Assembly (NCBI GenBank): GCA_001599935.1
Contig: BCIJ01000013.1
Coordinates: forward strand, 393,469 to 457,468
Reading direction: 5' to 3'
DNA: 64,000 nucleotides
From: Holtermannia corniformis
Lineage: Eukaryota > Basidiomycota > Tremellomycetes > Holtermanniales
Part shown: positions 38,044 to 45,100 of the stretch, piece by piece
How positions within the stretch are numbered: the first letter of the stretch is position 1
Layout of the letters: each line of letters begins with the position of its first letter
Notes under the pieces: model-generated
What the model was told of the DNA's origin: nothing
The model's database searches: none
The model's input: only the letters and a program-made list of their open reading frames with translations
Position numbers and translations under genes: made by a program

Positions 38044-41000
38044 TCATGACTGCGCCTGAGCCTGGGCCGGCTGCTGTGGCCGCCGTTGCCCCTGCGCTTG
38101 ACCCTGCCGTCCGCCTCTCTGCCCGTTGCCGTTCTGCTGCCGTGGTGGCTGTTGCTGATCCGACTGCTGCTGCTGTGGCCGCGGTTGTCGTTGCTGCTGC
38201 TGCTGCTGGGGTGGTCGTTGTTGCGCTTGCTGCTGAGGCGCTCGTTGCTGTGACGGCGCTTGCTGCTGCTGGGGAGGAGGCGAAGGTTGCTTGACGCCAG
38301 CCGCTGGTGGCTCGACGGCGATGGATGATGGCGCGACGTACAGTACTGGATCGACGTTGGCGGGGATTGGCGCGATCTCGGTTCCGAGTTCTTGTTCGAT
38401 CCGGTAGAGGTTGTGTCGATCTTCGATCTAGCGAGGTGTCAGCTCGGTGCGGCTGTTGGCAAAGTATGTAACGTGGTCGAGGGAAATCGCGTTACGACGG
38501 GTAGTGCAGCACAAGACGGCGTCGAGCGTTACAGCTGTACGCGTCGAACACCTAGAGCCAGCCCGCGGCCGCGACGAGCTCGCCAATCACACACTCGCAC
38601 ACGACCCAGATACACTCACCGTCAACAGACTGATCGCAATACCCAAGTGGCCGAACCGGCCGGAACGACCAATGCGGTGAAGGTACGACTCGGCCGTCTT
38701 TGGGAAATCAAAATTGATGACGACGTTGACGGCTTGAATGTCGATACCTCTTGTCAGCAGATCTGCACTCGGCGTCAGCGCTTCGACAGTGCTTCTGACG
38801 GGACGCAGACCCACCCGAGCAAACAAGATTCCGCGTCATGCCGCCCCTAAAGTCGTGAAACACGCGATTCCGGTGAGCCTGCAGCATCTTTGCATGCGAA
38901 TAGAAACACGAGTAGCCGAGGTCGGTAATCTTCTTGGCGAGCAGTTCGACGCGGTTGGTCGAGTTGCAAAAGATGATCGACTGGTTGATTTGGAGTTTGG
39001 AAAAGAGGGTGTTGAGGCAGTGCACTTTTTGGCGTTCTTCGACATAGGCGTAGTATTGGGTGACGCCGCGCAGGGTGAGTTCGTCCATGAGGTTGATTTC
39101 GTAAGGGTTGGCCATGTGGCGGTCCTGCGCGGTGTGAGCGGTGTCGACGGGAGGACGGGATGAATGTGATGGTTGGCACCCCGATAAGCGCACGACCCGT
39201 GGCGGATACGCGACCAAACACGCACTGTGCAGTGCTGACACTTTGACCACCAGACATCAGCCGTTCAAGCTGAGCCCAGGCAAGGCCGGCAGCACCGCGG
39301 CGAAGCTTTCGTACGTGCTATCGACTCGGCAGCTTTGTAGCTCCTGTGCTCGATTGTCTGTACCACCGTACGATCTCTGGCGTGTTGCTATGCAGACAGA
39401 CGAGACCACACTGGGTTGTGGAAGCTCAGGCTACGACAACTGTCGCTCTCAACTTGCACGGCAGCAGCCCACCGTACAGTCGACTTGTGGATCTAAGCCC
39501 GCAGCGGATCGCACGACGATAGCGCACGCGCACTCGTAACGACCATAGCGAGAGTTGACGCTCTCGGACGAAGAGCCGTACGGAGGATCAGCTCAGGGAA
39601 TTTACGCCTTGCTCATCGCACTCGACCTCGCCCAATCATGATCTCCCGTCCCGAGTGCCGATGTATCCATGCCGCGAATGAGGACACCACCTCACTGCGT
39701 GATTGTATCGCACGCGCATAGACGAGACGTCAGTGAAATAGACGCAGCTCAGACGAGCTACGTTCAAGCCCGCGCACCGCCGACGCGCGACTGCCGGCGC
39801 TACAACGTTACATGCTTGATGGCTCAAGCGCATGCACCCAACGAAATGCTTATCTTAGTGTCGGTCCAGCTCACGGGGGAGCTAACCGGCAACAAGACGC
39901 TCGCGTTCGCCACGCTTTTGCCACATTTGTTCAGCACATCCCGATCGACAACGGGTGAGGAAGGACGGCTACTTTGTCCGTCTCTGCGCCTAGTTGAGCG
40001 TCGTGTGGCGCGCATACATGATCGAGACGACGATAGGTCCCAAGGCGATAGCTCCGGCGAACTATCCTGCGCCCAGTTGCACTTGATCACACCGCCCGAC
40101 CGCGTGCAATGTCTCTATCCATGATAGCACTCGCGCACAGACGAGACGGGACGAGCTGCGCTCTCGTCTTTGTGCATCTTTACAAGCCGAATAAAGATTC
40201 AACAGAGGCGACTTGTGCGGATTGCTAGCACGCATGACCGAGGAAGAGAACAGCTCGGACGAGCTGCGCTCCTTGGCCTATCGAATTGCGAATCAAGTCG
40301 GTCGGAACACTGCGCAACAGCACGCGCACGATCGAGGCGACGTTGCGGTCAACGGGATAGCGCAAGTCGAGCTATCCGCCGCTTGATCGCGCTCGATTGT
40401 GACGGCTGATCGCTACTATCTACCATGCCCAGATGCGCGATCCGTGAGTGCGACATGCATGCCAGCGCACTGCACGAGCGAGATAGCAAGAGAGCCCATG
40501 CAGCTCAGACGAGCTGCGCTTTTGTCAACGGGATAGCGCAAGTCGAGCTATCCGCCGCTTGATCGCGCTCGATTGTGACGGCTGATCGCTACTAGCTACC
40601 GGGCCCAGATGCGCGATCCGTGAGTGCGACATGCATGCCAGCGCACTGCACGAGCGAGATAGCCGGTACAGCTCGGACGAGCTGCGCTATACCCTGCCGT
40701 ACTCGACCGCGCCGACTAGCGCATTGTCAAAGGAGCGCACCGACTCATCGGTAGAGCATGACCTGTTGGTGTGGAATCAAACGCACCATCGAGATATCAA
40801 CGATGCGCCAGCTCGGACGAGCTGGCGCGCACTGCGACGTCGTCGACGGCGCATCCGCACTACAAGACCCAGCATAGTTTAACGTTGCGACGCCCCATGT
40901 TCAAAGAAAGAGACAACCCACAAGACGGAGCGAAACAGAGAGAGACTCACGCGAAAGTCCTTGACCATCATCGGAAACGTTGCGGAAAACAGCATGACCT

Positions 41001-41728
41001 GGCGATCTCTCGGACACAGAGCGAGGAGCTGTTCCATGACCGGGGTGAATTCGGGGCTGAGCAGTTTATCGGCTTCGTCCATGACAAAGATGCCGCATTT
41101 CCTCAGATCGGCAATGCCCTTGCCTGCGAGATCGAGGATGCGGCCCGGGGTGCCGACGAGGACGTGGACGGGTTCTTGCAACCTCAGGATATCGTCTCGG
41201 AGTGTCGTCCCGCCCGTCGTGACCATGACTTGCAAGTTTGGGATATGCGCGCCCAAAGTCTTTGCGACCTGGGCTGTTTGTAGCGCGAGTTCGCGCGTGG
41301 GGACGAGGAGGAGCGCTTGGATGTGAGATTGCGCCGTGTTGATCAGGTTGAGTGTGGGGATTGTGAACGCTGCCGTCTTGCCGGTACCGTTCTTGGCGCG
41401 CGCGAGGATATCGCGGCGTGAGAGCGCGGCGGGGATTGCTTGTTCTTGGATCGGAGACGGGCGCTCGAACCCGGCTTGCCAGATGCCCATGAGGAGCTCG
41501 CGTTTGAGGTAGAGGTCGTCGAAGGAAGAGCCTTGAGTCGCTGTCACGTCCTGGGATGGGTCAGTCTGTTGCTGTTGCAGAGGTCAGTGACGGACCAGGG
41601 TTTGAGGTCGGAGGTCTTTGGGAGGTGCAGGCAGAGTGGAGCGCCAGTCGTCACTTGCGGCAGGGCTGTCTTGACGTCAGCAGAGCGATTGCACCGTCGA
41701 CTGCAGCGCACGTGGAGGAGGATGCCAT
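38044..41728 (-). CDS. DHH1: DEAD-box RNA helicase Dhh1/DDX6
   Basis: Cytoplasmic P-body helicase acting in mRNA decapping and translational repression. ATG 41728 splices to [20 protein letters not shown] and PPKDLRPQT, then [21 protein letters not shown]-motif [13 protein letters not shown]; motif [45 protein letters not shown]. Exon 3 ends MMVKDFR at 40951. The frame resumes at 39124 with [20 protein letters not shown], matching Dhh1 residue for residue across the gap. So 39125-40950 is a phase-0 intron of 1,826 nt with GTGAGT and CGCAG ends. Then come [40 protein letters not shown] and [20 protein letters not shown]. The tail is about 80 residues rich in Gln ([17 protein letters not shown]) and ends QAQAQS, TGA at 38044-38046. 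Confidence 0.93.
40348..40487 (+). repeat. 140-bp direct repeat, copy A
   Basis: Begins GTCAACGGGATAGCGC and ends GCACGAGCGAGATAGC. It matches copy B with three mismatches around 40420 (ATCTACCAT versus AGCTACCGG). It contains a hairpin GGATAGC/GCTATCC (40355-40377). A core hairpin follows 14 bp after its end. Confidence 0.9.
40524..40663 (+). repeat. 140-bp direct repeat, copy B
   Basis: Second copy, offset by exactly 176 bp from copy A and about 98% identical over 140 bp. It contains the same GGATAGC/GCTATCC hairpin (40531-40553) and is followed 6 bp later by a core hairpin. Such identity inside an intron implies recent duplication. Confidence 0.9.
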
Positions 41729-42149: not shown

Positions 42150-45100
42150 ATGACCAGTCCGGATGACCTCACGACGCCAACCACGCCAAAGCAACAATAC
42201 ACTTCACTCGCGTCACTGATCCCGACCAGCCACACCAGTCCGAGCACCAGAGGCTCACCAAAGTCGACTTCACCAGCAGCTGCCAAGGCGAAACGAACGA
42301 CCAGCGTCGGGTTCAGCCTCGGGACCGTGTCCGAGGCGTCACCTGCACCGGATGCGACGCTAGGCAGCGCGCCGAGCCGTCCGAGTCGCAGTCGCAGTAG
42401 GAGCCCAGCCGTCGCGACAGGCAAGGCCGATGGCAAGGATGGGACAAAGGGACCGCTTAGTACGTGGAAGATGATGGCGTTGACCGTCTCGATGGGTGGC
42501 AGTCAGGTCCGTCCTGCTTGCCTGCGCTTGCCCACTTGACTCTGGCTCACAGTCCTTGCAGATCGCATGGACAGTGTCAGTCCCTCAACTCGACCTCGCT
42601 TCGCACGCTTATACTTCCCAGAGAGCTAGGCTACGGTACCCCGTACCTGCTCTCTCTCGGGCTCTCGGAACAACTCACCTCGCTAGTCTGGCTTGCAGGC
42701 CCCATATCCGGCCTCGTCGCCCAACCTCTGATCGGCGCAATCTCCGACTCGTCCCAATCGCGCTTCAGGCGCCGCTACTGGATCGTCGCCGCCACGGTCC
42801 TGCTCGTGCTCAGTGGCTTGGGTCTGGCGTTCACCGAAACGATCGCCCGGGTCTTGGTCGACCTAGGTGGCGGCGGAGAGGGCGATTGGGATCCTAGGAG
42901 GGGAAAGCTGGTCAGCCCCATCTGTGCCGAGTGCAGATCATGGCTGAACCGATCGATAGATCAAATCGACCGCGATCGCGATTGCCGTCTTGGCGTTCTA
43001 CTGTCTTGATTTCGCCCTCAACGCGTGAGTTGTGCAACCAGACGCTATCTTGGGTCGGCTTTCACCCGGATGTCGAGCTTGTTGCTCTGCGCTTTTCACT
43101 CTTGAAAAGCAACAGGCATCAGTCCCATCCATATCGCTCGACCGCTCCCGTATCATCATCTAACCCATCCACAGGCTCCAAGCGTCCCTCCGCAACCTCG
43201 TGCTCGACATTACGCCCGGCGAACAGCTCGCGTCGGCAAATGCGTGGCATGGCCGCTTTAACCATTTCGGGAATATCGTCGGGTTCACGCTCGGTCAGTC
43301 TTGGCGTCTGCTTGAAGCCGCTGCTTCACACTTGGCTCTGATGCGGGTTCGTGAGGATGGATCGCTGGAACTGTACTGGGCCGCGCGCTGCGTAAGCGCG
43401 ACCAGTGTCCGGGCTCAGCAATCCACTCCTCTTCGTCCCACCAGCCTGCCTGTTCTACTCCGCTGTCCCTCACGCTTCTACTGAATCCACACACCCAGGC
43501 TTTCTCAACCTCGCAAACGTCCCAATTATCCGTCTCGTCGGCGGCGGTCAATTCCGCAAAGGTGCGTTCTCTGACTCGACACGCACAGATCCTGACGCAG
43601 CCAGTTTGCATTGTCGCGCTCCTCTTCCTGGTACTGACCGTCTGGATCACGTGCTGGACTCAAGAGGAGGATGCGAGGGAGAGTATCTTTGGCGAGAGGC
43701 GATCGTGAGTCTCCCTGGCTCTACTCACAGTCGTGTCTTGGCTCGGAGTTGTTGGCGCTCGCAGCTCTTGAGATTGAGCTGCGATCCCAACATCTCCCGA
43801 GCCGAGCTCGATCCCGCTCCCAGAGCGGCAAGCTAACACCCCCAGCAAAATCCGCGACGTGATTGCTACAATCTACGAAGCCGTGTTGCACTTGCCAAAA
43901 CCTGTGCGCAGAGTGTGCTACGTCCAGATCGCAGCGTTCATGGGCTGGTTCCCCTATCTGTTCTACTCCACGACCTGGGTCGGCGAAGTGATGGCGCAAG
44001 AGCTGGGCTACGAGCCCGATGTCGATAGCGCGACGCGCGCGGGCAGTTTGGCATTGCTGATCTACAGCTTTGGTAAGCCGTCGTCTTTCTTCGAAGATTC
44101 CGCGCTGAGGAACACAGTGGCCATCTTTGCCGGCACGTTGCTACCCTACCTCGCGGCGCGCGATCACCGCCTGTTGAAACCCAAGAGCGAGCGTTCGGCA
44201 CGCACCACGAGCTCGACAGCGTCCGATGCAGAATCATCAGATGACGAAGATGAAGATGAAGAGATGGAGCGTATCCGCGACATGGTCCGGCAGTGGAAAG
44301 CCGAGGCTGCGCGTGAAGGGCGGCCATTGAAGCTTCCGACGAGTGCGTGAGAGCCGAAAGGTTCGAGGTGATGCTGACGGCGCAGTGCCGTTCATGTTGC
44401 GGAATATCTGGACGGCGGCGTTGGTTCTGTTTGGACTGATCATGGGCTCGACGTTTTTCATCCGTACGGTCTGGCAGGTGCGTGCTGTCGAGGCTGTGCT
44501 GGATGGGCGCTGAGATCGTCAGGCGACGGTTGCGATTGCGTTGGTGGGCATCTGCTGGGCCGTCGCTTGCTGGGTGTGAGTGCTCTACTGATTGTGAGCC
44601 GCGCTGACGTTGTAGACCGTTTGCGTAAGTCAGGAGGGGTCTGGCTGCATGTGTCACTAATAGCTGCGATCAGCATCATCATGGAGGTGTGTAAGGTTTG
44701 GTGACCCAACCTCGCTGACACTGCTAGTTCTTGAAAGAGATGGACGATCAGCACGCTGCGGCGCAAAAGAAGGCCAGTGGCCCCGCCTCACGCCGGCGTG
44801 CGCAAATGCCATCAAACGAGTCTGGATCAGGCCCAAGCGCAGCCTCGTATCGACCAATGCACTCTCGTGCAATGTCGACCCCGAACGGTCCTTGGCGGTC
44901 CACTCCGGCGTCACCGACCGTGACGGAACGCACACCGCTCGCACGCAGCATGTCGACGGCCGACGTCGAGGGCGCGTACGGCGACCGAGTCGATTATACT
45001 GGCTCTGGGCCCGTGGCGGGCGGGACCATCATGGGCATCCACAACCTCGCCATTGTCTTTCCGCAGTTCATTGTCCGTTACGCCCGCTGCTGTGATAGGG

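Follow-up and report, generated by a model that had tools for sequence, protein, structure and literature searches.

A candidate family of intronic pre-mRNA hairpins, clustered in a long DHH1 intron of Holtermannia corniformis and matched by a single hairpin in a tropomyosin intron

The window analyzed here, a stretch of 64,000 nucleotides that is part of one contig of the Holtermannia corniformis genome (20.2 Mb, 55 contigs), contains a gene for a DHH1/DDX6-type helicase (Table 1). The joined exons of this gene align with DHH1 of Kwoniella mangroviensis (540 aa) at 89% identity over 384 aa ungapped, and the named protein matches P0003–P0021 come from Kwoniella, Vanrija, Cryptococcus, Tremella and other genera, which we take to be Tremellomycetes. 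The two top matches (P0001 and P0002) are labelled Artemisia annua and Acipenser sinensis; these plant and fish DHH1-like proteins seem to stem from contamination of those assemblies or from chimeric gene models. The gene is interrupted by a long intron, and the initial annotation of this DNA had placed an array of hairpins inside it, a location that is borne out by the ungapped exon alignment together with the GTGAGT and CAG ends of the intron. Introns of 1.8 kb and 0.8 kb, such as the DHH1 intron and the tropomyosin intron described below, are probably unusual for such a fungus.

Table 1. Features of the DHH1 locus and of the tropomyosin intron (positions are those of the window unless a locus or contig is named).
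Feature	Position	Strand	Remarks
DHH1/DDX6-type helicase gene	~38.0–41.6 kb	minus	
DHH1 intron	39125..40950	minus	1826 nt; donor GTGAGT starting 40950, acceptor CAG ending 39125; from exon alignment
Hairpin c1	39742..39763	minus	sense ACGUAGCUC GUCU GAGCUGCGU, 9 pairs including one U.G
Degenerate copy c2	40139..40169	minus	AGACGAGA/TCTCGTCT around a core without AGCTC arm
Hairpin c3	40248..40269	minus	sense loop GUCC, 8/9 pairs formed
Hairpin c4	40498..40519	minus	sense loop GUCU, contiguous 7-bp stem, 8/9 pairs formed
Hairpin c5	40666..40687	minus	sense loop GUCC, 8/9 pairs; 26/30 bases same as tropomyosin copy
Hairpin c6	40805..40828	minus	GCGCCAGCUC GUCC GAGCUGGCGC, 10 perfect pairs
Divergent hairpin h40055	40047..40066	minus	sense GAUAGUUC GCCG GAGCUAUC, 8 pairs (one U.G), different outer stem
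Related hairpin B1	40355..40377	minus	GGATAGC, 9-nt loop, GCTATCC
Related hairpin B2	40531..40553	minus	duplicate of B1
Related hairpin with 6-nt loop	39868..39883	minus	AGCTC, 6-nt loop, GAGCT; by reading
Weak member, possible	39549..39566	minus	CGAGAGT TGAC GCTCTCG (plus letters); shares only loop type, post hoc
Weak member, possible	39814..39829	minus	GCTTGA TGGC TCAAGC (plus letters); post hoc; poorly formed in sense context
140-bp direct repeat, first copy	40348..40487	plus	98% identical to 40524–40663
140-bp direct repeat, second copy	40524..40663	plus	
Tropomyosin intron	L011:1046–1856 (C5 ~625866–626676)		811 nt, before last exon; GTACGT...CAG

Within the DHH1 intron the sequence AGCTC-RGAC-GAGCT (AGCTCRGACGAGCT) occurs five times in exact form, starting at positions 39746, 40252, 40502, 40670 and 40810 and spanning 39746–40823 (c1 and c3 to c6). 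Six copies of this core within 1.1 kb had been reported; five are exact, and the copy near 40139 (c2) is degenerate and lacks AGCTC. The plus-strand loop was said to be RGAC in the five clear copies, and the pattern search agrees (5/5). The general palindrome AGCTCNNNNGAGCT was found five times, against a mean of 0.16 in 100 shuffles, none of which reached five. Genome-wide, AGCTCRGACGAGCT has eight occurrences in 20.2 Mb, five of them within the DHH1 intron, and AGCTCNNNNGAGCT is present at 62 places. In the sense of the gene the hairpins have the approximate consensus AGCGCAGCUC-GYYN-GAGCUGYRC, in which the inner stem of 5 bp is near-invariant, the outer part comprises up to five pairs that are variable but mostly formed, and the tetraloop starts with G.

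Outer stems that differ from copy to copy had been proposed for individual hairpins, and these proposals were upheld to different degrees. A contiguous outer stem of at least four pairs is present in only two of the five exact copies, those at 39746 and 40810. The stem proposed at 40805 was thereby confirmed for the copy at 40810, and the one at 39742 has its four or more contiguous pairs only if U.G is allowed in the sense strand. The pair GAG/CTC at 40246 exists, but an internal loop separates it from the core; at 40139 there is a separate 8-bp pair around the core AGACGGGACGAGCT, which lacks AGCTC; and GGTA/TACC at 40666 is out of register, with 1 nt to the core on one side and 6 nt on the other. 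Over the outer four positions, the five copies have Watson-Crick pairs in 13 of 20 cells, versus 14 of 60 in a control set of 15 unrelated hairpins that share the core (Fisher 0.001, for cells that are not independent). The control was drawn from the 56 other places of AGCTCNNNNGAGCT and leaves out the tropomyosin copy; a smaller control of 13 places that includes it gave 13/52.

To find divergent members, covariance models were built from six or five gap-free hairpins, since MAFFT placed two hairpins wrongly in an alignment of eight; it puts the B-type hairpin GGATAGC/GCTATCC in the columns of the main hairpin. The model from the five exact copies (R2) was searched over the intron alone and over the whole window. 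It matched h40055, a hairpin absent from the model, at 40043–40070 with 12.5 bits (E 0.013 in the intron, 0.44 in the window). Within the intron, below the members and their own reverse strands, it also matched c2 (40132–40164; 8.7 bits, E 0.15), B1 and B2 (40352–40380 and 40528–40556; 8.6 bits, E 0.16) and the AGCTC hairpin with a 6-nt loop (39861–39890; 8.6 bits, E 0.16). Counting B1 and B2 as one, four further distinct intron hairpins have an E of at most 0.16, all of them on the sense strand; further down the list, the intron matches lie on mixed strands. As unrelated places in the whole window reach 19.5 bits and the window-wide E of h40055 is 0.44, single divergent members are weak, and it is the excess within the intron that matters. 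The top non-member is an unrelated stem outside the intron (GCAGCTC/GAGCTGC with an 8-nt loop, 43756–43787; 19.5 bits). Beside c6, at 40782–40807, lies an 11-bp stem-loop with three G.U pairs in the sense strand (CGCAUCGUUGA UAUC UCGAUGGUGCG).

The pairing of the aligned hairpins was compared with that of shuffled controls. In the DHH1 sense, 93.3% of the 45 pair cells of the five copies are paired and three pairs have changed on both sides. Per-pair shuffles had a mean of 83.6% paired; the observed fraction was reached by 3/500, the covariation score by 3/500 and the two-sided pair count by 23/500. With h40055, which was added because it is paired, 92.6% of 54 cells are paired (a fraction reached by 2/500 shuffles), with four two-sided pairs. 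With the tropomyosin copy as well, the values are 93.7% of 63 cells and again four two-sided pairs (reached by 16/500), in a set of seven of which two hairpins were chosen because they look like members and in which pair 5-24 is unpaired in three. The plus-strand reading of the six hairpins is 87.0% paired, which 0/500 shuffles reach, compared with 92.6% and 2/500 in the sense; since the antisense reading also beats its own shuffles, the pairing test does not settle the strand.

When whole arms were permuted among the five copies (sense), the observed value was reached in 24/120, 12/120 and 3/120 cases at 2, 4 and 7 outer pairs, and among six copies in 36/720, 18/720, 10/720 and 3/720 cases at 2, 4, 6 and 7 outer pairs. 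The support from whole-arm permutation is modest and comes largely from c1 and c6; an energy version of the arm test without the 40810 copy gave no clear signal. The view that the sequence changes while pairing is kept therefore holds in part: it agrees with the paired fraction, the three two-sided pairs and the outer pairing relative to the control, but the permutation reaches 3/120 at best, the antisense reading beats its shuffles and some of the proposed outer stems are misregistered.

The clustering of a palindromic 14-mer would also be expected of an element that acts at the DNA level, for instance palindromic transcription-factor sites that together form, in effect, an intronic enhancer. 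We regard this as unlikely: in the sense strand G.U takes up several of the outer pairs, which keeps RNA pairing but loses DNA palindromy, and h40055 keeps its pairing with other stem bases. The asymmetric loop also lies in one orientation in all five exact copies, although shared descent could explain this.

Shared descent is indeed part of the history of the array. The 140-bp direct repeat carries the GGATAGC/GCTATCC hairpin, and the plus-strand upstream flanks of the copies are related to each other at a rate above chance, in 8/28 copy pairs at p ≤ 0.05 for bases 12–62 and in 5/28 for bases 16–66. The downstream flanks are hardly related (1/28 and 3/28 copy pairs at p ≤ 0.05). From the duplication at 98% identity and the related flanks it follows that the copies partly share descent; as the flank relatedness is one-sided and weak, duplication accounts for part of the similarity between copies. 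By reading and in the alignment, a loose box GCAC...CGAGA recurs on the plus strand upstream of the hairpin copies (39705–40800); it is found near 40010 and 40320 too, without a clear hairpin, as if part of a degenerate repeat array.

These features raise the possibility that the intron grew neutrally, with duplications copying a palindrome and template switching repairing or extending its stems, so that covariation is mimicked without selection. Template switching is reported to be capable, in a single event and without selection, of making a stem perfect or of introducing compensatory changes at several bases (PMC8794818), and the paired changes seen here could have arisen in this way. In yeast, loss of RNase H2 is reported to be linked to mutations that extend the arm identity of quasi-palindromes (PMC3820800). 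Together with the 140-bp duplication and the related upstream flanks, these processes make neutral growth a serious contender, which we nevertheless consider somewhat less probable than a family of pre-mRNA hairpins that acts as a signal; it fits poorly with downstream flanks that are hardly related while the cores are intact.

The plus-strand loop NGRC, a motif defined after the data had been seen, is present in 8/11 tetraloop hairpins of the intron versus 9/324 elsewhere (the rest of the window and sampled loci), and in 3/6 intron hairpins when the five same-core copies are left out (Fisher 7e-4). Wobbles in tetraloop stems are of the minus type in 12 cases and of the plus type in 4 within the intron, compared with 90 and 73 outside; as base composition alone gives about 57% minus type, this bias is weak as evidence for the strand. 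Folding of the full intron favors the sense strand. Folding of the eight hairpins in their local context showed neither better insulation than in shuffled context nor a strand preference (mean pair probability 0.67 in sense vs 0.74 shuffled, and 0.65 in antisense vs 0.71 shuffled). The mean folding z-scores are only slightly lower in the intron (-0.54 on the plus and -0.63 on the minus strand) than outside (-0.01 and -0.07), and z < -2 was obtained for 4/21 (plus) and 1/21 (minus) windows in the intron and for 8/194 and 10/194 outside.

A copy at a second locus was located by sequence pattern and then scored with the covariance model. The pattern CAGCTCNNNNGAGCTGCGC at no more than one mismatch matches C5:626321, within an intron of a gene identified as tropomyosin from its joined exons (Pfam Tropomyosin, E 2.4e-17). 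As in DHH1, the hairpin lies in the sense orientation of its gene; its loop is GUUC. With R2 it scores 34 bits; the members lie at 34.7–37.4, and the highest-scoring unrelated places reach only 19.5 and 19.6. It matches c5 in 26 of 30 bases. Of the four mismatches, two together make up a pair change from GGUA/UACC to GGCA/UGCC (by reading, in the out-of-register outer stem). Hairpins with this pairing pattern lie within introns, in a common sense orientation, at two loci. The initial annotation had suggested building a covariance model and searching the genome for copies; pattern search and model together yield a full-scoring copy at an independent site (34 bits). Such a same-sense match in an unrelated intron is left unexplained by neutral growth of the DHH1 intron. 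A 137-codon open stretch runs antisense across the tropomyosin hairpin.

Palindromic motifs invite chance matches, and loose matches do occur: a 21-mer pattern, with both known bases allowed at one position, gave four other matches in the genome, all with three mismatches, and six in the reversed control. Scaled to one mismatch, these 4–6 background matches correspond to about 0.007–0.01 expected genome-wide, before a position in the sense of an intron is even demanded. That the tropomyosin match is a coincidence, and the DHH1 array an isolated minisatellite-like repeat, is accordingly very improbable. When the hairpin copies are set aside, the DHH1 intron and that of tropomyosin have no match to each other better than E 0.6, so that some 30 nt are common to two otherwise unrelated introns. 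Insertion of a minimal hairpin element, mobile or dispersed, into both introns would leave this picture; we think it quite unlikely, as the patterns tried reveal two loci only in 20.2 Mb and no other copy of either intron was found at the sensitivity of the DNA search.

The wider searches were as follows. A 22-nt pattern at up to three mismatches had 71 matches versus 95 in reversed controls. Of the 27 loci from the 21-mer and 22-nt searches that were scored with a covariance model (R1), the tropomyosin copy ranked first with 31.9 bits; the next best (L054, 21.7 bits) lies within an 807-codon open frame and was taken as chance. Patterns for two other hairpin types, applied genome-wide, found only the DHH1 copies. 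A DNA search of the genome gave no second copy of the DHH1 array and, at its sensitivity, no other genomic copy of either the DHH1 or the tropomyosin intron. Across 20.2 Mb, sequence patterns thus returned no convincing copy beyond these two loci; very divergent members may lie elsewhere in the genome, beyond the reach of such patterns.

Several candidates were set aside. Of the other genomic sites of the 14-mer (L001, L002 and L008), the one at L001 falls within an open frame of 637 codons and is antisense to it by reading. Three similar sites at C1:1025011–1025614 looked coding by eye and showed no hairpin array; open-frame length discriminated poorly among the loci overall. A putative 53-nt intron at L002:1479–1531 (C4 ~176488) holds an exact AGCTCGTCTGAGCT core in the sense orientation, which may be chance; its gene resembles the LYR family, for which both Pfam scores are below the cut-off. 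This site was not counted as a member because R2 matched only the 14-nt core (16.9 bits). A reading of the motif as a conserved peptide was rejected, as different copies use different plus-strand frames.

The initial annotation had proposed a selected RNA (or cruciform) family. In favor of this are the two-sided changes, the outer pairing, the divergent sense-strand hairpins, the tropomyosin copy and the lack of an Rfam match; shared descent, the modest permutation results, the antisense signal, insulation no better than in shuffled context and z-scores near background count against it. Our tentative preference is for pre-mRNA hairpins that form a small intronic family, locally amplified in DHH1, and that would act in long introns as a signal for recognition or processing. 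On this reading, the DHH1 intron would have multiplied the hairpin by local duplication, with a single copy in the tropomyosin intron. The hairpins would fold in cells, and a putative trans-acting protein, RNA-binding or RNA-cleaving, would recognize stem and loop; this recognition might help the splicing of long introns or their turnover after splicing, and so affect splicing or decay. The family comprises only two loci, and the DHH1 copies may represent one event. In a bolder version, which we consider improbable, the long introns of this lineage carry a dedicated code of GYYN-loop hairpins that is read by a trans-acting factor and aids the short-intron spliceosome in their definition or disposal; the level of DHH1, a central mRNA-decay helicase, would then be tied to that factor.

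If the family is real, it represents an undescribed class of cis-acting intronic RNA in a basidiomycete, and it brings its own comparison, since one gene has an array and another a single copy. The fungal spliceosome mostly handles short introns, and the two loci would open to testing how it copes with introns of 0.8–1.8 kb. If the array is neutral, it shows how covariation can be imitated by local duplication together with arm repair, and it cautions against RNA discovery that relies on a single genome.

Comparison with known RNA families agrees with the earlier statement that this family was not recognised. Rfam covariance models gave no match in the window at the gathering cut-off, two matches at chance level only in 38900–41200 (E 2.4 and 3.1) and none up to E 2 in the tropomyosin intron (L011:1000–1900). 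ARAGORN predicted no tRNA genes in the window. A telomerase RNA, a snoRNA and a Helitron end were considered against Rfam only and dropped. Searches confined to openly licensed PMC papers turned up no description of such an intronic hairpin element.

By analogy, the nearest known system would be the intronic RNase III hairpins of yeast. In RPS22B and RPL18A, cleavage of intronic hairpins by Rnt1p (RNase III) degrades the unspliced RNA or the spliced lariat, as far as the source excerpt describes it (PMC13183374). The hairpins described here resemble these in being stem-loops within introns, and in the yeast system the tetraloop is a recognition feature, according to the same excerpt (PMC13183374). 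Unlike the AGNN loop of Rnt1p substrates, the sense loops are GUCU (c1, c4), GUCC (c3, c5, c6), GCCG (h40055) and GUUC (tropomyosin); only the antisense loops AGAC and GGAC resemble AGNN, with AGAC on the antisense of c1 and c4 alone. Contiguous stems measure 6–10 bp in the clear copies, whereas Rnt1p cleaves 14 and 16 nt from the loop in the excerpted account (PMC13183374). The RNase III domain (PF00636) is present above cut-off at two places in the genome. Since the AGNN loop is absent from the sense strand, we do not class the hairpins as Rnt1p-type substrates.

An RNA structure in the GLC7 intron of Saccharomyces cerevisiae is reported to be associated in cis with the expression of its own gene (PMC4937481), and is intronic like that of DHH1. 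The DHH1 family differs from it in its repeated hairpins, its shared loop and its basidiomycete host, the sequence relation having been judged by Rfam only. Template switching is reported to make hairpins and would explain how their arms become perfect, or change together, through a single mutation (PMC8794818); by itself, however, template switching does not predict that a loop and stem are shared with a second, unrelated intron.
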